Below, piece after piece: positions 9,636 through 48,711 of a stretch of DNA of 64,000 nt. The notes below the pieces were generated by a model, which saw only the letters and a list, made by a program, of their open reading frames with translations, made no database searches and was not told the origin of the DNA. The stretch comes from Candidatus Sumerlaeota bacterium (GTDB lineage: Bacteria > Sumerlaeota > Sumerlaeia > JAFGJS01): assembly GCA_016928995.1 (NCBI GenBank), contig JAFGJS010000125.1, positions 1 through 64,000 of the forward strand, read 5' to 3'. Position numbers and translations under genes: made by a program. The first letter of the stretch is position 1; each line of letters starts with the position of its first letter.

Positions 9636-10013
9636 AAACACGCCGAAAGTCAATCCCACGGCTTGCAACACGATGCCGGGGAACTGCGCTTCCATCAGCG
9701 AGGATATGCCGCCGATGAACAGGCCTTCCAGCGCGGCGTAAAGCGGCGCGGTGAATGGCGAGATGCGCATGCTGAAGCTGGTGATGATCGCCACGACGAA
9801 GCCGCCGAAGGCGCCGGTCAGCAAGAAGGGCATGATCGCTTCAGGATTGCGGCCGGCGTTGATGAATTGATGCCAAACCCACACCGAGACGGCGAAGCAG
9901 ATCAGCAACAGGATGCCGGAGCGATTGACGGTTCCGGCCAATGTCATCCGCCGGCCCGCCGCCTGTGTCTCCGAGAATGTCCGTTCGTTCAACGCTGGAT
10001 TGGATGTTCGCAT
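9273..10013 (-). CDS. Bax inhibitor-1/YccA family membrane protein
   Basis: A 246-aa integral membrane protein with about seven hydrophobic helices. The N-terminus MRTSNPALNERTF and the segments SPFTAPLYAALEGLFIGGIS and AALNLVLDFDLIEQGAQHGA (the latter ahead of PKYMEWYAAFGL) are diagnostic of the bacterial YccA/BI-1 branch. Members act as pH-sensitive calcium leak channels or modulate membrane proteases; the exact role here is unknown. AAGG lies upstream of the ATG. It is divergent from the alpha-2-macroglobulin gene, with a palindromic repeat in the gap. Confidence 0.9.
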   Translation of the reverse strand: MRTSNPALNERTFSETQAAGRRMTLAGTVNRSGILLLICFAVSVWVWHQFINAGRNPEAIMPFLLTGAFGGFVVAIITSFSMRISPFTAPLYAALEGLFIGGISSLMEAQFPGIVLQAVGLTFGVFLTLLAAYATGFIKATDNFKRGVIAATGGILAIYLATLVLGFFGTAIPYIHESGPIGIGFSLFVVTIAALNLVLDFDLIEQGAQHGAPKYMEWYAAFGLMVTLVWLYIEILRLLSKLNSRR

Positions 10014-10155
10014 AATATCGCCTTTTGAATGTTATTTGACTTCCTGACGGAAAAACATAGTTTCTGGATTTTCTCACCGATTGTCAATTCCAAGCAACGC
10101 TTAATCGGGTCGTTGCGGCGTTGATTGGATTGCTGAACATTTTGCGATTGATTGA

Positions 10156-29426: not shown

Positions 29427-32400
29427 TTAACAGTATCTTTCAGGCAAAGCTTTGACGATGCGGACGGTCTCCAGGCTGACGCGGACGACCTGGCCGATCA
29501 GGCGGACGATGTATTGCGGATCGTCCGCGCGGTTGGGATCGGAGACGATGCCGGTGCGCTTGTCGGTTTTGACCTGATACTGATCGATGACCCACTCCAG
29601 CGCGCTGCGGTTGCCCAGGCGGTACTCGAAGGTTTCGGGCGGGATGCCGCCGAGGGTCAGCGTGTCGTTCACCTTCAGCGCGGATTTGTCCTTCGACAGC
29701 CGCAGCTTCTCCACACGATACGACAGCGGCTTGCCCGGCGTTTCGTTCCATTGCAGTTCGTACGGCTTCAGGCTTTCATAGTTCAGGTGCAGTTCGGCCA
29801 GTTCGCGCCCCGCTTGGGAGAACGCCTGGAAATTCGGCGCGAACGGAATGCGCGGCAGTTCCCGCTTCAGGCAATCCGCGAACCGCTCGAGATACCCCGG
29901 ATGATGCAGCACGCCATAAACGTAATAGAAGATGTCCCACTTTTCGATCTTCCTGCCTTGCTTGCCATAATGCTCGCGAAACTGTTCCAGCGCCCAATCT
30001 GTAATATTCTCCCGACGGTTCGAGCCGTCTTCATCATAACTATAAAATGGAAAACATTTGCCAGGGCGACCACCCACAGCTTCATTTGGTGTGCACGCTG
30101 AAATCAAATGGGAGAATGCCATTTGCGAATGGTTTGTGGTGTGTATGATTAAATTTGAATCTTCTTTTGTAGATATTGGATAGATATGTAAAAGAGAATA
30201 TATTTCTTCATTAAAAATCCTATCGAAGAATAGGTGTCTTTTCGTAAAAGGGCGATAAAGCGAAAAACGAATCTTATTTGGAGAGAACTCAGCATAATGC
30301 CCTCGTTGAAGGTCTAATTTAAGATCACGACTCCAAGAAATATTTTCATATTTTACAAAATTATCGACACCAATCCTGTCTTGCTCAGATTGAGGAGTCC
30401 TTTTCCAACGATCAACTTCTGAGTTATAATCTTCAATGAACTGATGGACGCGCTTTTCCAATTTCTTTTTAGCAAAGTCATATACTATCACATCGCGGTT
30501 GGTCTTCACGCCACCGGAGAATACTTTGAAGATCGTTTCGACATCCTCACGTTTGTCGGCTTTGGTTTCTTTCGATCCGATGGATATGAATTTCCGAAAA
30601 ACTTCCTGATCTTCAGGTATAAGCCAGGTATGCTCATTATCAGGATGAAGTTTTTGCCAATCGATTTTATTAATGCTTCCATGCTCTATAAGGTAGTTTT
30701 CTTTTTCTTCCGCTCGCCAATAATCTTCAACTGAATGAAATGAAAGTTGCTTATCATTTGTCATTCGCTTGCGAATCAGTACGCTGATACCTACACCACA
30801 TCGAATCATATCATGAAATATATTTCCGCCTTCTCTTCGTCTGCGTTCTCCTGATGTTCTGGCATTGCCTTTGAAATCGAAATGATAAATTGAATCGAAG
30901 TCTTTTAGAAGGTGTTTGCGAAAACCATCGAAAGCAACTCCATTCAAGAAGCCATTATTCGAAACAAAGCAGACAATGCCGTCGCGACTTTCAAGGCGAT
31001 CCGTGGCCCAGCGAAAGAATTTCACATAGGCGTCGCTGAGGGCGTTCTTGTTTGTTGCCTTTGAGTCGTGGGCGTAGGTGTCTTTGATGCGCTTTTCGAC
31101 GGCGGGGTATTTGCGGTTCTTGTTGTTGTCGTTTTCATTGAGTTGGCCGACGTTGTAAGGCGGATTGCCGAGGATGACGGTGATCGGGGCGGCGGTCTGG
31201 CGTTCGACGCGCTCGGTGTTCCTTTCGCTGAAGGCCAGCAGATCACGTTCTTTCTCAGCCAGCGAGAGTGTGTCTACGAAGCAGAGACCTTCGAACGGCT
31301 CATAGCGTCCGGCGAGTTCGTAGTAGGCGTGCTCGATGTTCAGCGCGGCGATGTAATATGGCATCAGCATGACTTCGTTGGCGAAAAGGCGCTGGCGATA
31401 GAATTCCTCGAGTTTGCGTTTGGGCGCGCGGCGCAGCAGGTTGACCACGAAACTGCCGGTGCCGGTGCAGGGATCGAGCACGGTGACGTCCGGATCGCCG
31501 AGGGATTTGCCGAATTCGCTCTTCAACACCTCCTCCACCGAGGCGCACATGAAATCGACGATGGGCTGCGGGGTGTAGACGATGCCGTGGGTGTCGGCGG
31601 TCTTCACGCAATAGCCCTGGAAGAAGCGCTCGTACACGGTGTTGAGGAAATGCTGCTTGTCGCTGAAGTGCGTCAGCGTGCGCGCGGCGGATTCGATGGC
31701 CAGATAGAAGCGGTCGAGCGAGGCGAGGTATTCCTTGCGGTTGAAACTCTGGCTGACCAGCGCGTCGATGACTTTCTCCACTTCGGCGGCGATGACGTTG
31801 CGGCGGGTGAAGTCGGCGTTGTCGAAGATCGTGCGGATCAGGCGCTCGGTGAGGAGATGCTGCACGAGCATTTCGTCCACGGCTTCGCGCGCGAGGTTCG
31901 GGTTGAGCGACTCGCGGCAGAGGGCGAAGAATTCCTTGAAGGATTGCTGGAAGCGGCGGTTGCTCTGGTGCGCCTCTTCGATTTTGTCCACGAGTCCGCG
32001 CGCGAGTTCGGGCACACGCTCCTTGAAGGATTCCACGGCCTGCTCGAACTCATGAATATCCGGCTCGACGTGGGCGTAAAAGCGCTGGAGCAGATCGGCG
32101 AGTTGCTGTTTATCGGTGAGATCGGCGCGCAACATTTCGCGTCCGTCCTGATAGAGCAGGGCATCACGGGAATTCTCAAAGATAGTGTTGGTCAGCGGAT
32201 AGCCGCGCTCGGTCTTGGCTGCTGCGGCGGCGGCAAGATCGTCATCGGGATCCTTTGCCTCCCAGTAACCGCGCGGCAGGCTGTTGGCGTCGCGCAACGT
32301 GCCGTCCGGGCGGATGGAGCGTCCTTCGGCGGAATGGGCGCTGAGTTCGGGGATCAAGACCCATTTATGCGTCCTGGCCGTTGTGGTCAGCAAATCCTGA

Positions 32401-32519
32401 AACGCGGAACGCAACGCGCCTTCGTGTTTGACTCCTTCTTTCTCATAACGGCGCAATGTGGCGTAGTAATCGCGGATGGCTTTGGGGCTGATTGATGCGC
32501 TGGAGCGTTGAGCAGTCAT
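29427..32519 (-). CDS. Single-chain type IIG-like restriction-modification enzyme
   Basis: A 1030-aa protein; the ATG at 32519 is preferred to a TTG 6 bp upstream. The N-terminal nuclease-like domain has RPDG (D72) and GYWEAKD (E87, K89), a PD-(D/E)xK pattern. A helical connector follows, then an N6-adenine methyltransferase: motif X GIVYTPQPIVDFM, motif I DPCTGTG (349-355) and motif IV NPPY (452-455). The C-terminus should hold target recognition. No helicase motifs are present, so it is not a full type ISP or type I enzyme. The DNA for residues about 520-840 (30000-30960) is much more AT-rich than both flanks. It stands alone without separate specificity or methylase genes. Confidence 0.85.
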   Translation of the reverse strand: MTAQRSSASISPKAIRDYYATLRRYEKEGVKHEGALRSAFQDLLTTTARTHKWVLIPELSAHSAEGRSIRPDGTLRDANSLPRGYWEAKDPDDDLAAAAAAKTERGYPLTNTIFENSRDALLYQDGREMLRADLTDKQQLADLLQRFYAHVEPDIHEFEQAVESFKERVPELARGLVDKIEEAHQSNRRFQQSFKEFFALCRESLNPNLAREAVDEMLVQHLLTERLIRTIFDNADFTRRNVIAAEVEKVIDALVSQSFNRKEYLASLDRFYLAIESAARTLTHFSDKQHFLNTVYERFFQGYCVKTADTHGIVYTPQPIVDFMCASVEEVLKSEFGKSLGDPDVTVLDPCTGTGSFVVNLLRRAPKRKLEEFYRQRLFANEVMLMPYYIAALNIEHAYYELAGRYEPFEGLCFVDTLSLAEKERDLLAFSERNTERVERQTAAPITVILGNPPYNVGQLNENDNNKNRKYPAVEKRIKDTYAHDSKATNKNALSDAYVKFFRWATDRLESRDGIVCFVSNNGFLNGVAFDGFRKHLLKDFDSIYHFDFKGNARTSGERRRREGGNIFHDMIRCGVGISVLIRKRMTNDKQLSFHSVEDYWRAEEKENYLIEHGSINKIDWQKLHPDNEHTWLIPEDQEVFRKFISIGSKETKADKREDVETIFKVFSGGVKTNRDVIVYDFAKKKLEKRVHQFIEDYNSEVDRWKRTPQSEQDRIGVDNFVKYENISWSRDLKLDLQRGHYAEFSPNKIRFSLYRPFTKRHLFFDRIFNEEIYSLLHIYPISTKEDSNLIIHTTNHSQMAFSHLISACTPNEAVGGRPGKCFPFYSYDEDGSNRRENITDWALEQFREHYGKQGRKIEKWDIFYYVYGVLHHPGYLERFADCLKRELPRIPFAPNFQAFSQAGRELAELHLNYESLKPYELQWNETPGKPLSYRVEKLRLSKDKSALKVNDTLTLGGIPPETFEYRLGNRSALEWVIDQYQVKTDKRTGIVSDPNRADDPQYIVRLIGQVVRVSLETVRIVKALPERYC

Positions 32520-32708
32520 GAGCAATGAGACCTTGTTCGCATTTTCTGTTCGTTTCTGGGATGACTAAGCGCTAGATAGATTATGAGAATCGTGTTTGTT
32601 CGTGCAAGTGAAAGGTTTCAACTGCTTCGAAGTTCTTTTAACTTTCTTCGAGGTTTTGATCAGGTCTTTGTGCTTGCGTGGGGCGGGGAGGTTTGGAAGA
32701 GTTCGGGC

Positions 32709-44316: not shown

Positions 44317-44401
44317 CATGGCGGCATGGTGAAATTGTTTGCCAGTGCATTTTCAGGACAGTAACATTTCTGACTTACAGTTCGTTGCGAGAGGAACTCT
44401 C

Positions 44402-45817
44402 ATGGGCAAAAATCTATATCAAAAAGTGTTTGAACGGCACACCGTGCGGCAGCTGCCATCCGGTCAGTATCAGCTCCTGATGGGCTTGCAGATGATTCAC
44501 GAAGTCACGTCTCCGCAGGCTTTCTCGATGCTCGATGAACGCGGCTGGCCGGTGAAGTATCCGCATCGCAATTTCGCCACGGTGGACCATATCATCCCCA
44601 CGCACGATCAGAGCCGTCCGCTGGCCGATCCGCTGGCCGAGGAGATGTTGCAGCACATCGAGCGCAACACGGCGAAGCATAACATCGCGTTTTTCGACAC
44701 GAAAACCGGCGGGCAGGGCGTCGTGCATATCGTGGGACCGGAGCAGGGTTTGACGCAGCCGGGCATGACGATCTGCTGCGGCGACAGCCATACCGCGACG
44801 CATGGCGCGTTCGGCGCGCTGGCTTTCGGCATCGGCACCTCGCAGGTGCGCGATGTGCTGGCCACGCAAACCCTTTCGATGGGCAAACTCAAGGTGCGCC
44901 GCGTCGAAATCAACGGCAAACTGGGTTCCGGCGTGTCCGCCAAGGACGTGACGCTGTACATCATCCAGCAGCTGGGCGTGAAGGGCGGCGTGGGCTATGC
45001 CTATGAATACGCGGGCGAGGTTTTCGATCATTTCAGCATGGAAGAGCGCATGACCGTGTGCAACATGGCCATCGAAGGCGGCGCGCGCTGCGGTTATTGC
45101 AATCCCGATCAAACGACCTACGGCTACCTGAAGGGCCGGAAATACGCTCCCTCTGGCGAGGCGTGGGATCGCGCCGTGGAGTACTGGGAGTCGATGAAGA
45201 GCGATCCGGACGCGGAGTATGACGACATCGTGAAGTTTGACGCCGCGGACATCGAACCCATCGTCACCTGGGGCATCACGCCTGGCCAGTCCATCGGCGT
45301 GACGGGCGTCGTGCCCGCCGCGGATGAGTTTCCCGAGGATGAGCGGCCGCTGATTGAAGAGGCGTATCAATATATGGGCTTCGAGGCGGGACAGCCCGTG
45401 CGGGGGACGAAGATCGACGTGGCGTTCATTGGCTCATGCACCAACGGCCGGCTTTCGGATTTCGAGGAAGTCGTTAATCTGTTACAAGAATGCGGAGGCA
45501 GGGTTGCGCCGCACGTGAATGCGATGGTTGTGCCCGGCTCGCAGCCGATCTATGAGGAAATGAAACGGCGCGGGTGGGATCGGATCATCACCAACGCCGG
45601 TTTCGAGTTCCGCGAGGCCGGATGTTCGATGTGTTTGGCGATGAACCCGGACAAGCTGAAGGGCCGCGAGATCTGCGCCAGCAGCAGCAATCGCAACTTC
45701 AAAGGCCGTCAGGGCAGCCCCACGGGCCGCACGCTGCTGATGAGTCCGGCGATGGTCGCCGCCGCGGCGCTGGCCGGCGAAGTGGTGGATGTGCGCGAAT
45801 TAAATCAAGCACGATAA
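44402..45817 (+). CDS. leuC: 3-isopropylmalate dehydratase large subunit
   Basis: 471 aa from the ATG at 44402 (GAGAGG upstream). It has the aconitase-family [4Fe-4S] ligands C346 in IGSCTNGR and C408/C411 in CSMCLAMN, plus [20 protein letters not shown]. It isomerises 2- and 3-isopropylmalate in leucine synthesis together with LeuD. LeuD is encoded 2.3 kb downstream instead of adjacent, because two unrelated genes lie between them. Confidence 0.95.
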
Positions 45818-45845
45818 TTTATAAAGTTCATCTCGCTGATCGAAT

Positions 45846-47057
45846 ATGAAAAACGAAGCGCAATATTGGGAAGACTGCTTGACTGATGTGGAAAATCACT
45901 CTGTTGAGCGGAAGGAATCTCCCGCCGATAAAAACGAACTTCGGAGGCAGATTTGCGCTTTTGCCAATGATTTGCCGGATTGCCGTCAACCTGGGATTTT
46001 AATCATTGGGGCTACCGATAAAGGCGAATATGCAGGGCTAGAAATTACCGATCAATTGCTCACCAGCCTGAGCGAAATGCGATCAGATGGTAAAATCCTG
46101 CCTTTTCCAATGCTTCGAGTGGAAAAGAAAACGATTTTATCACATGACTATGCCATCATTTCCGTCGAGCCATCGAACTCCCCGCCAGTGAGAATGGATG
46201 GGCGCGTATGGGTGCGTGTTGGACCAACGCTTCGTCAAGCCACGAGAGAAGAGGAAATCCGGCTGGCGGAAAAACGGAGATACAAGGATTTATCCTTCGA
46301 TCTGACGCCGGTGGAGTCCGCCAGCATAGAGGATTTTGACAAAACTCTCTTTGCGGATGTTTATCTCCGCCATGCTGTCGCGCCTGAGGTGCTGGAGGAA
46401 AATGAGAGAACCTTTGAGCAACAACTATCCTCGCTAAGGATGATTCGATCGGCTGCCGATCCATTGCCGACGGTCACGGGCATTCTCACTATCGGCGCGG
46501 ATCCGCTGCAATACTTGCCGGGGGCTTATGTTCAGTTTTTGCGCATTCAGGGAGTTGAAGCAACTGATCCAATTAAGGATCGCAAGGAAATATCCGGACC
46601 TTTGATCCAAGTGCTAAGAATGCTGGATGAGTTGATCAACGTGAATGTGGAAATTCGCACTGAGATTGCTCGATCCAATCTTGAAATACAGACTCCCGAC
46701 TACCCCATCGCAGCGATACAACAGGTCATCAGGAACGCAATCTTGCATCGTAACTATGACAGCACAAATGCTCCGGTGCGTATGTATTGGTACCAAGACC
46801 GTATTGAGATTATCAGCCCTGGCGGAGCCTATGGTCAGGTCAATGACAGAAATTTTGGCCAACCAGGCGTGACGGATTATCGCAATCCGACATTGGCGGA
46901 AGTCATGCGCAACCTTGGCTATGTCCAAAAGTTCGGCATGGGAATTCCCATCGCAAAAAAAGAGATGGCGCAGAACGGCAATCCAGAATTAGAATTTAAT
47001 TTCCAATCGGGAATTATAACAGCTATATTAAGGCGAAGACCGGAGCACACACCATGA
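45846..47057 (+). CDS. AlbA_2 (Schlafen-type) / RecG-like ATP-binding protein
   Basis: 403 aa. N-terminal AlbA_2 domain (about 18-140): VERKESPADKNELRRQICAF, ANDLPDCRQPGILIIGATDKG and the RVGPTLRQATREEEIRLAEK end. A helical middle is followed by a GHKL-like ATP-binding domain typical of these proteins: AAIQQVIRNAILHRNYD, DRIEIISPGGAYG and KFGMGIPIAKKEM. Such proteins are putative nucleic-acid-binding regulators, and several are linked to defence. It starts 28 bp after leuC, overlaps the ParA-like gene by 4 bp, and is AT-richer than leuC/leuD, so acquired by transfer. Confidence 0.87.
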   Translation: MKNEAQYWEDCLTDVENHSVERKESPADKNELRRQICAFANDLPDCRQPGILIIGATDKGEYAGLEITDQLLTSLSEMRSDGKILPFPMLRVEKKTILSHDYAIISVEPSNSPPVRMDGRVWVRVGPTLRQATREEEIRLAEKRRYKDLSFDLTPVESASIEDFDKTLFADVYLRHAVAPEVLEENERTFEQQLSSLRMIRSAADPLPTVTGILTIGADPLQYLPGAYVQFLRIQGVEATDPIKDRKEISGPLIQVLRMLDELINVNVEIRTEIARSNLEIQTPDYPIAAIQQVIRNAILHRNYDSTNAPVRMYWYQDRIEIISPGGAYGQVNDRNFGQPGVTDYRNPTLAEVMRNLGYVQKFGMGIPIAKKEMAQNGNPELEFNFQSGIITAILRRRPEHTP

Positions 47058-48097
47058 GCGCTGTTCCGATCCTGGCGTTTTTCAACAATAAAGGCGGCGT
47101 GGGCAAGACGTCGCTCGTTTACCATATTGCCCATATGTGCGCCATATTAGACATTCGTGTTCTGGCTGCGGATTTAGACCCGCAGTCGAATTTGACATCC
47201 GCGTTTCTGCCAGATGAGGAATTGGAAGATTTATGGAATGAGAAAACGGACTATACAACTCTGTATAAATGCGTCCACCCCTTGATTAAGGGAACTGGCG
47301 ATGTCGACACTCCAGCGCCGTATCACATCGACGACAATATTTTCCTGCTGCCAGGGGATTTGCAGCTTTCTGGTTTTGAAGATCAATTATCTGAATCCTG
47401 GCCCAAATGCAATGATGGTGATGAGCGGGCATTCCGGGTGACATCGGCATTTTGGCGCTTGTTGCAACAATCTGCCAGCGACAATAATGTTCAATTGATT
47501 CTAATGGATCTTGGGCCGAATCTTGGCGCATTGAATCGCGTCGCTCTCATCTCGGCAGATTATGTCGTTATGCCGCTAGCGCCCGATCTTTTTTCGTTGC
47601 AAGGTTTGAAAAATCTCGGACCAACGTTAAAACGATGGAACACTCAATGGAAAGAGCGCAGCCCTAGGGCTGATGATATGGATTTCGAGGTTCCTTTGGG
47701 AGACATCTCGCCTTTGGGATATGTGATTATGCAGCACAGCGAACGGTTAAAACGCCCAACCAAAGCATATGCCCAATGGGCGGAGCAAGTTCCTGCATTG
47801 TATCGTGAGTATGTATTGCAGCAAGCGCATGTCCAAGATGATCTTTCGCCAAGTGCGGATGAATATTGTTTGTCTTTCATTAAACATTTCCGCACACTGA
47901 TGCCGCTGGCGCAAGAAGCGAGAAAACCTATTTTTTTATTGAAAGCGGCAGATGGCGTTCTCGGAGGGCACAATAAATACGTGCAAGCTGCGTACGATTT
48001 ATTCAAGAGTTTCACGGAGAAACTCTTGAGAGTTATTGGTCTACAGCCTTCAGAAATGATACAGCAAAGTTTATTCAGCGAAGGAAAAGGAAAATGA
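47054..48097 (+). CDS. ParA-like P-loop ATPase
   Basis: 347 aa. It has a deviant Walker A NNKGGVGKTSLVYHIAHM, ADLDPQSNLTSAFLP, and Walker B-like LILMDLGPNLGALNRVALIS, all typical of the ParA/MinD superfamily. Its start (ATGA) overlaps the stop of the AlbA_2 gene and its stop overlaps the leuD start by 4 bp, so translation of all three is coupled. The long C-terminal part (about 190-347) is unlike standard partition ParA, no parB or parS is adjacent, and a chromosomal partition role is unlikely. AT-rich like its partner. Confidence 0.88.
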   Translation: MSAVPILAFFNNKGGVGKTSLVYHIAHMCAILDIRVLAADLDPQSNLTSAFLPDEELEDLWNEKTDYTTLYKCVHPLIKGTGDVDTPAPYHIDDNIFLLPGDLQLSGFEDQLSESWPKCNDGDERAFRVTSAFWRLLQQSASDNNVQLILMDLGPNLGALNRVALISADYVVMPLAPDLFSLQGLKNLGPTLKRWNTQWKERSPRADDMDFEVPLGDISPLGYVIMQHSERLKRPTKAYAQWAEQVPALYREYVLQQAHVQDDLSPSADEYCLSFIKHFRTLMPLAQEARKPIFLLKAADGVLGGHNKYVQAAYDLFKSFTEKLLRVIGLQPSEMIQQSLFSEGKGK

Positions 48098-48711
48098 ATG
48101 AGACAATGAAGCGAGTGAAAATCAGCGGCCGCGCGGTGAGCGTGCGGGGCAACGATATCGACACGGACCGCATCATTCCGGCGCGTTACCTGCGTTGCGT
48201 GACCTTCGAGGGGCTGGGCGATCACGCCTTCGAGGACGACCGCAAGCAACTGGCGCTGCAGGGCAAGACGCACCCGCTGGACAATCCGCATTTCGCCAGC
48301 GCGACGGTGCTGTTTGGGAATAAGAACTTCGGCTGCGGCTCATCGCGGGAGCACGCGCCTCAGGCGATCATGCGCTGGGGCGACGGGATCCAGGCGATTG
48401 TGGGCGAGTCGTTCGCGGAGATTTTCTTCGGCAATTGCATCGCGCTGGGGATTCCCTGCCTGACCGTGTCCGCGGTGGACATCGCGCAGCTGATGGCGCA
48501 AAACGAGGCGGATCCGAAGACGGAATTCACTGTGGATCTGGAGGCGATGGAAGTGCGCTGGGACGGCGGCTGCGTCAAGGCGCAACTGGCCGATGGACCG
48601 CGCAGCCAGTTCCTCGAAGGTAAGTGGGACACCACGGCCGAGCTGATGGAAGATCCCGGCGCCATCGCCGCCACTGCGGCGAACCTGCCGTACTTCAACC
48701 ACTGGAAATAA
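48094..48711 (+). CDS. leuD: 3-isopropylmalate dehydratase small subunit
   Basis: 205 aa. It has DIDTDRIIPARYLRCVTFEG, the conserved NFGCGSSREHAPQAI and ESFAEIFFGNCIALGIPCL, complete for LeuD. It forms the swivelling domain of the LeuCD enzyme. Its ATG overlaps the ParA-like stop by 4 bp; an in-frame ATG at 48106 may be the ancestral start. The gene has returned to the GC-rich composition of leuC. Confidence 0.95.
   Translation: MNETMKRVKISGRAVSVRGNDIDTDRIIPARYLRCVTFEGLGDHAFEDDRKQLALQGKTHPLDNPHFASATVLFGNKNFGCGSSREHAPQAIMRWGDGIQAIVGESFAEIFFGNCIALGIPCLTVSAVDIAQLMAQNEADPKTEFTVDLEAMEVRWDGGCVKAQLADGPRSQFLEGKWDTTAELMEDPGAIAATAANLPYFNHWK

Follow-up and report, generated by a model that had tools for sequence, protein, structure and literature searches.

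Which two genes separate leuC from leuD in the 64-kb stretch of DNA analyzed here (the window), and what are they doing inside a leucine operon? The two leu genes encode the large and the small subunit of 3-isopropylmalate dehydratase, and the order at the locus is leuC, gene A, gene B and leuD, all on the + strand (Table 1). The original prediction had placed a pair of AT-rich genes at this position in the direction of leuC and leuD, and the coordinates and strands agree with it to the base. Its description of the products, a Schlafen-type AlbA_2 protein with an ATP-binding domain followed by a ParA-like ATPase, is borne out by Pfam, and both of the 4-bp overlaps it proposed, between genes A and B and between gene B and leuD, can be read in the sequence as ATGA.

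Table 1. Features of the leuC-leuD locus (positions in the window).
Feature	Position	Strand	Evidence
leuC (3-isopropylmalate dehydratase large subunit)	44339..45817	+	Pfam Aconitase 1.3e-163
gene A, 403 aa	45846..47057	+	Pfam SLFN_AlbA_2 3.6e-14, HATPase_c_4 8.7e-17
E16-x4-E21 codons in gene A	45891..45908	+	alignment; D58 codon at 46017-46019
ATGA overlap, gene A stop / gene B start	47054..47057	+	sequence
gene B, 347 aa, ParA-like ATPase	47054..48097	+	Pfam AAA_31 4.3e-26
ATGA overlap, gene B stop / leuD start	48094..48097	+	sequence
leuD (3-isopropylmalate dehydratase small subunit), intact	48094..48711	+	Pfam Aconitase_C 4.4e-14

Gene A starts 28 bp behind the stop codon of leuC, the last codons of which are unlike those of uninterrupted relatives (compared with G004). 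The leuC gene shares 73-77% identity with most close relatives, and leuD shares 58-72% with its counterparts in the closest ones. When the ORFs within the window are compared, the pair is the compositional outlier and its composition is foreign: the GC content of genes A and B is 0.48 and 0.46, and their GC3 values of 0.50 and 0.47 are the lowest among the long ORFs of the window, the others ranging from 0.55 to 0.79 with leuC at 0.76. The pair had also been predicted to lack a promoter of its own, in line with which no sigma-70-like match is found on the + strand between leuC and gene A; the sole + strand match lies near position 47000, inside gene A, and is at chance level. We rejected a plasmid or prophage remnant as the origin of the locus, as neither an integrase nor ParB nor flanking repeats marking an insertion were found at the junctions. 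About 13 kb upstream of the pair, the window encodes a type IIG restriction enzyme-methyltransferase of 1032 amino acids (29427-32525 on the - strand; PADLOC E-value 4e-232).

We mapped both leu genes in 39 genomes of the class. They are direct neighbours, about 30 to 100 bp apart, in G004, G019, G031, G034, G038, G013, G028 and G033. Elsewhere the gap is filled by a 303-aa ORF, presumably a DHH-type phosphoesterase (G021, L094), by a 605-aa ORF encoding a probable membrane protein (G024, L095), or by a GxxExxY-type PD-(D/E)XK protein (PF13366, PDDEXK_3; G029, L096 and G002, L097). The genes for the latter (L096:2517-3049 and L097:1333-1878) are bordered by inverted CGCAGAG-type repeats, as in a small mobile element. 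In G037, an AAA_15/AAA_21 ATPase gene follows leuC at a contig end and a DUF3226 gene precedes leuD at a contig start (L102/L103). PADLOC assigns both genes to a candidate defence pair, PDC-M38A and PDC-M38B, which probably occupies the leuC-leuD junction of this genome, a placement that is only probable because the arrangement spans a contig break. At this junction, the AlbA_2-ParA pair was found in no other genome examined in the class. The junction is loose across the whole class, so that an interruption as such is less remarkable than it seemed. At the same time, a junction that is uninterrupted or differently filled in relatives, together with the non-uniform composition, rules out an ordinary extension of the leu operon and speaks for a cassette, as had been proposed.

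The two genes form a unit far beyond this locus. Relatives of gene A occur in 4 of the 39 genomes of the class and in 11 of 386 genomes drawn broadly (E-value 1e-45 or better), as well as in 16 of 291 genomes (1e-50) of a phylum that we take, from the neighbouring genes, to be cyanobacteria-like. Gene B was found directly after gene A in 26 loci, 24 of which display the exact 4-bp ATGA overlap; the two exceptions have a 6-bp gap and a 29-bp overlap, respectively. The same order in all these loci and the same overlap in nearly all of them argue that the pairing is not due to chance. The trees of both proteins are broadly congruent (Mantel r 0.83). Copies from the window's own class, four in number, are not grouped in a single clade, a pattern consistent with repeated transfer. 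The pair is a real, patchy and mobile unit.

Some copies deviate from this pattern. Gene A of G077 is broken off by the contig end and has no gene B, gene B of an Acidobacteria contig (L032) has decayed, and in G548 (L131:7308-8916) gene A is reduced to about 210 amino acids with AlbA_2 only, lacking the GHKL domain, while gene B still overlaps it. What looked like a 650-bp insertion at residue 97 of gene A in G337 is merely a stretch of N in the record. Viral contigs scanned with the single protein yielded no relative of gene A; alignment scans yielded pairs in two contigs (L138/L146 and L145). Flanking direct repeats were searched at all pair loci and found only in G122, so that there is no general insertion signature. 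There, two direct copies of the 5' part of a flanking gene, 347 bp long and 90% identical, bracket the pair (L113:5250-5596 and 9770-10116); the longer copy of this gene gives a methylase-like PADLOC match (mad2, 2e-18).

Gene A combines an AlbA_2 domain (PF04326, residues 16-132), scoring above the Pfam cut-off, with a GHKL-like HATPase_c_4 domain (residues 309-392). The latter ends 11 residues before the C-terminus, no further Pfam domain is present and no C-terminal wHTH was found. E16 and E21 are invariant wherever aligned. Of the 25 sequences that have a residue at position 58, 23 have D and two have N, and the box residues N297, H301 and D318 are conserved in the alignment. Based on motif and spacing, and not on an explicit superposition of side chains, E16/E21/D58 correspond to E205/E210/D248 of SLFN13, mutation of which reduces or abolishes cleavage; Schlafen domains cleave tRNA (PMC5862951). 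The AlphaFold model of gene A (pLDDT 83) matches DIP2311 (3lmm, Z 21.6) and the AlbA_2 domain 2kyy (Z 10.3) best, and its C-terminal half resembles histidine-kinase-type ATP domains. Residues 7-118 align with SLFN13-N (Z 8.6, rmsd 2.9 over 104 residues), SLFN5 (Z 8.6) and SLFN11 (Z 8.5), moderate matches that are confined to this single domain. Gene A probably encodes a Schlafen-type endoribonuclease, with putative RNase activity and target. It shares the E/E/D triad and the fold with the SLFN13-type enzymes, whereas it has one AlbA_2 copy and a GHKL-like domain instead of their pseudo-dimeric core (PMC5862951).

Gene B has a deviant Walker A motif (KGGVGKT), and K13, G17, K18, T19, D40 and D152 are invariant in 20 aligned proteins. 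Its C-terminal region, comprising about residues 197-347, is specific to the family. The structure model (pLDDT 89) matches DIP2308 (3pg5) best, followed by Soj and ParA, and 3pg5 is also the nearest solved structure in the profile comparison (1.4e-46). Proteins of the ParA type form dimers with ATP and bind DNA without regard to sequence, and ATPases of this kind are known as movers of plasmids, chromosomes and cell machinery. The KGGVGKT motif, D40, D152 and the overall fold (Soj, ParA and McdA via Foldseek) are shared with the ParA/Soj/MinD partition ATPases. Gene B differs from these in its extended C-terminal region and in its phylogenetic position: beyond the Walker domain it matches only a limited set of ParA proteins, which in a tree of 66 proteins branch separately from the canonical ParA/Soj proteins (support 0.87-0.95). 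When the C-terminal region of the AlbA_2-coupled ParA clade is turned into an HMM, this recognizes SIR2-coupled and stand-alone ParA proteins clearly and RelA/SpoT- and HEPN-coupled ones weakly; 16 canonical ParA controls gave no significant match. No parB accompanies gene B in the window, where its neighbours are gene A and leuD, and reading of the other AlbA_2-ParA loci, supplemented by partial family searches, revealed no ParB-like neighbour. Instead of a ParA-like ATPase lacking parB, as in the earlier description, gene B is better called a member of a separate ParA clade that has a C-terminal region of its own and usually toxin-type partners.

Besides AlbA_2 proteins, three other types of partner occur in this ParA clade, and most of the pairs are tightly coupled. 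A SIR2_2 partner is confirmed by Pfam in Burkholderia stagnalis and Photobacterium and a SIR2 partner is annotated in Salmonella, Spirosoma and Vibrio ponticus; the Neorhizobium partner, read from sequence, is presumably SIR2 as well. Such ParA-SIR2 cassettes are found on plasmids of six genera (L132, L134, L135, L034, L036, L039) with unrelated flanks, and all six are AT-rich relative to their own flanks. Pfam further identifies a HEPN_RiboL-PSP partner in Burkholderia glumae and a RelA_SpoT partner in prophage contigs and in G010. ParA genes of the clade accompany RelA/SpoT-domain genes in L147-L155 (IMG/VR), G010 (L047) and G482 (L197), the partner in G482 being one that we take to be RelA/SpoT from its sequence. 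The AlbA_2 partner precedes ParA, whereas the SIR2, HEPN and RelA/SpoT partners follow it. Stand-alone members of the clade are present in phage Pf1 and in P22-like phages. An independent query, the SIR2-coupled ParA of Salmonella, gave 13 matches in the 386 genomes, ten of them coupled to AlbA_2, two to RelA/SpoT (G010, G482) and one alone (G086); 12 of the 13 thus adjoin an effector-type gene. The ParA-RelA/SpoT pair comes after a third gene, about 195 codons long, in both G010 and G482, and in G482 the pair is followed by a gene that we read as hsdM-like. In L147 and L154, the ParA-RelA/SpoT genes lie between what we take to be P2-like gpA and gpQ genes. The gpA-gpQ interval is an anti-phage hotspot (PMC9122126).

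The neighbourhoods of the AlbA_2-ParA pair are equally varied. In L145, the pair is embedded in a BREX operon in the order pglX (E-value 0), gene A, gene B, pglZ (1.9e-281) and brxL (4.5e-295), with gene B overlapping pglZ by ATGA. In L115, it lies within a DISARM operon between drmD (E-value 0) and drmMI (2.5e-284). The copy in L119 precedes an HmaC/DUF499 gene (2.4e-135), and that in L129 comes after a PemK/MazF-type gene and before HEC-01A, a type IIG enzyme and ThsB. A look for defence neighbours, as had been suggested, places several copies within defence operons or islands. About 550 bp downstream of the pair in L118 there is an orphan methyltransferase gene. Housekeeping genes are the neighbours elsewhere: the pair lies 58 bp behind argG in G006, and in G005 it is set between a GH106 gene and selA-selD, overlapping its neighbour on either side by 4 bp. 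By our reading of the sequence, it follows hemH in G456 and leuB in G548, and six cyanobacterial copies sit directly behind a presumably uvrA-like gene. Neighbours are unrelated from locus to locus, and most of the 27 loci, that of the window included, are outside obvious defence islands. The proposal of a cassette is supported, but the pair is not peculiar to leuCD and is found in many other places.

We propose, at a probability of roughly 0.6, that the pair is a horizontally moving toxin or defence module in which a Schlafen-type endoribonuclease is combined with a ParA-type regulator or sensor. Judging from the families involved, gene B would bind ATP, dimerise and coat DNA without sequence specificity. 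Infection, either by the arrival of new DNA or by a phage protein touching the ATPase, could change the state of gene B, upon which gene A would be freed or switched on to cleave tRNA or another RNA. Translation would then stop and the phage could not finish its cycle, i.e., abortive infection. The RNase activity, its target, the trigger, the direction of control and the phage protection itself are our inferences. Translational coupling via the first ATGA may keep the two proteins in ratio, and the module, having no clear promoter, may use the transcription of the leu operon. The second ATGA overlap would pass translation on to leuD, so that the insertion leaves leuD intact. We see even odds for a broader proposal, that an entire class of toxin or defence modules relies on a partition-type ParA ATPase with its own C-terminal region to sense for, or control, exchangeable effectors (Schlafen RNase, SIR2, HEPN, RelA/SpoT-domain enzyme) and spreads by settling in defence (BREX, DISARM) and housekeeping (leuCD, selAD) operons.

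The conserved gene order, the patchy spread, the BREX and DISARM neighbours, the E/E/D triad and the swapping of effectors all speak for a toxin or defence module. Against it stand the many loci outside obvious defence islands, the differing order of partners, with AlbA_2 before and other effectors after ParA, and the G548 pair without a GHKL domain. Of the other readings, recruitment of the pair to regulate leuCD as a part of leucine metabolism in this lineage is close to refuted. The tight overlap with leuD would suit such an accessory role, as would the G548 pair behind the gene read as leuB, but relatives lack the pair at leuCD, its composition is foreign, and other copies follow argG, hemH-like or uvrA-like genes or precede selA. 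An addiction cassette without a role in defence, in which gene A is the toxin, gene B the neutraliser and loss is costly, is clearly more plausible than that, though still unlikely; persistence would be helped by residence in an operon that cannot be cut cleanly. The coupling of the two genes, the toxin-type effector domains within the same ParA clade, the patchy spread and the AT-richness of all six SIR2 cassettes fit addiction. However, placement in BREX and DISARM operons and in a prophage defence spot exceeds what addiction needs, the gene order varies from subclade to subclade, and the pair lacks a small labile antitoxin.

Somewhat less probable than addiction is a regulator of transcription or DNA repair, i.e., an AlbA_2-GHKL protein that binds DNA and, with ParA, controls neighbouring genes or aids the nucleoid or repair. 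The six copies immediately behind the uvrA-like gene, possibly a sign of a role in DNA repair, count for such a regulator and against a defence module, and so does the frequent annotation of AlbA_2-GHKL proteins as transcriptional regulators, or as RecG-like helicases, on plasmids and phages. AlbA_2 is moreover termed a DNA-binding domain in pAgo surveys (PMC6299218). A regulator is nevertheless hard to reconcile with neighbours that differ from locus to locus, with a conserved nuclease triad, and with related ParA proteins that take SIR2, HEPN or RelA/SpoT partners instead.

If one ParA clade does control four unrelated toxin-type effectors, this would be a new use of the fold and a simple, testable way of sensing, by means of an ATP-dependent switch bound to DNA. 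Further effector pairs can be sought with the clade's C-terminal region. The presence of the cassette in BREX, DISARM and leuCD operons shows that such modules move into operons already at work and draw on their expression; gene-neighbourhood searches centred on defence islands will therefore miss copies such as that of the window.

Among the closest known systems are the Schlafen-kinase RNases that PMC12839542 reports to serve BREX and BREX-related systems as backup effectors. In these, as in gene A, a Schlafen/AlbA_2 domain is followed by a minimal histidine-kinase-type ATP domain, and our pair too is found in a BREX operon (L145) and beside a DUF499 gene (L119). Gene A differs in having no room for a C-terminal wHTH and in being tied nearly always to a ParA, a term with no whole-word hit in the main text of that paper; the pair is also found far from any BREX system, as in the window. 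PDC-M38, HEC-01, PARIS and others likewise consist of an ATPase and an effector in a compact operon, but their ATPases are of the ABC/OLD type (AAA_15/AAA_21), whereas gene B is of the ParA type. PADLOC-DB 2.0.0 contains no specific model matching both genes: gene A matches only parts of pAgo-type models, and gene B gives a 50-residue match to PDC-M28B (4.6e-4). No description of the AlbA_2-ParA pair or of a ParA-effector family was found in the literature searched, which covered few subscription journals and excluded bioRxiv. The compact module of an ATPase and an effector is known as a kind; a ParA-type ATPase with several effectors is new relative to that literature. The nearest solved relatives of gene B (over its full length) and gene A are DIP2308 and DIP2311 of Corynebacterium diphtheriae, the latter being longer than gene A (583 amino acids). 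Both structures were solved without an assigned function; that their locus tags differ by three within a single genome hints at a related locus in C. diphtheriae.
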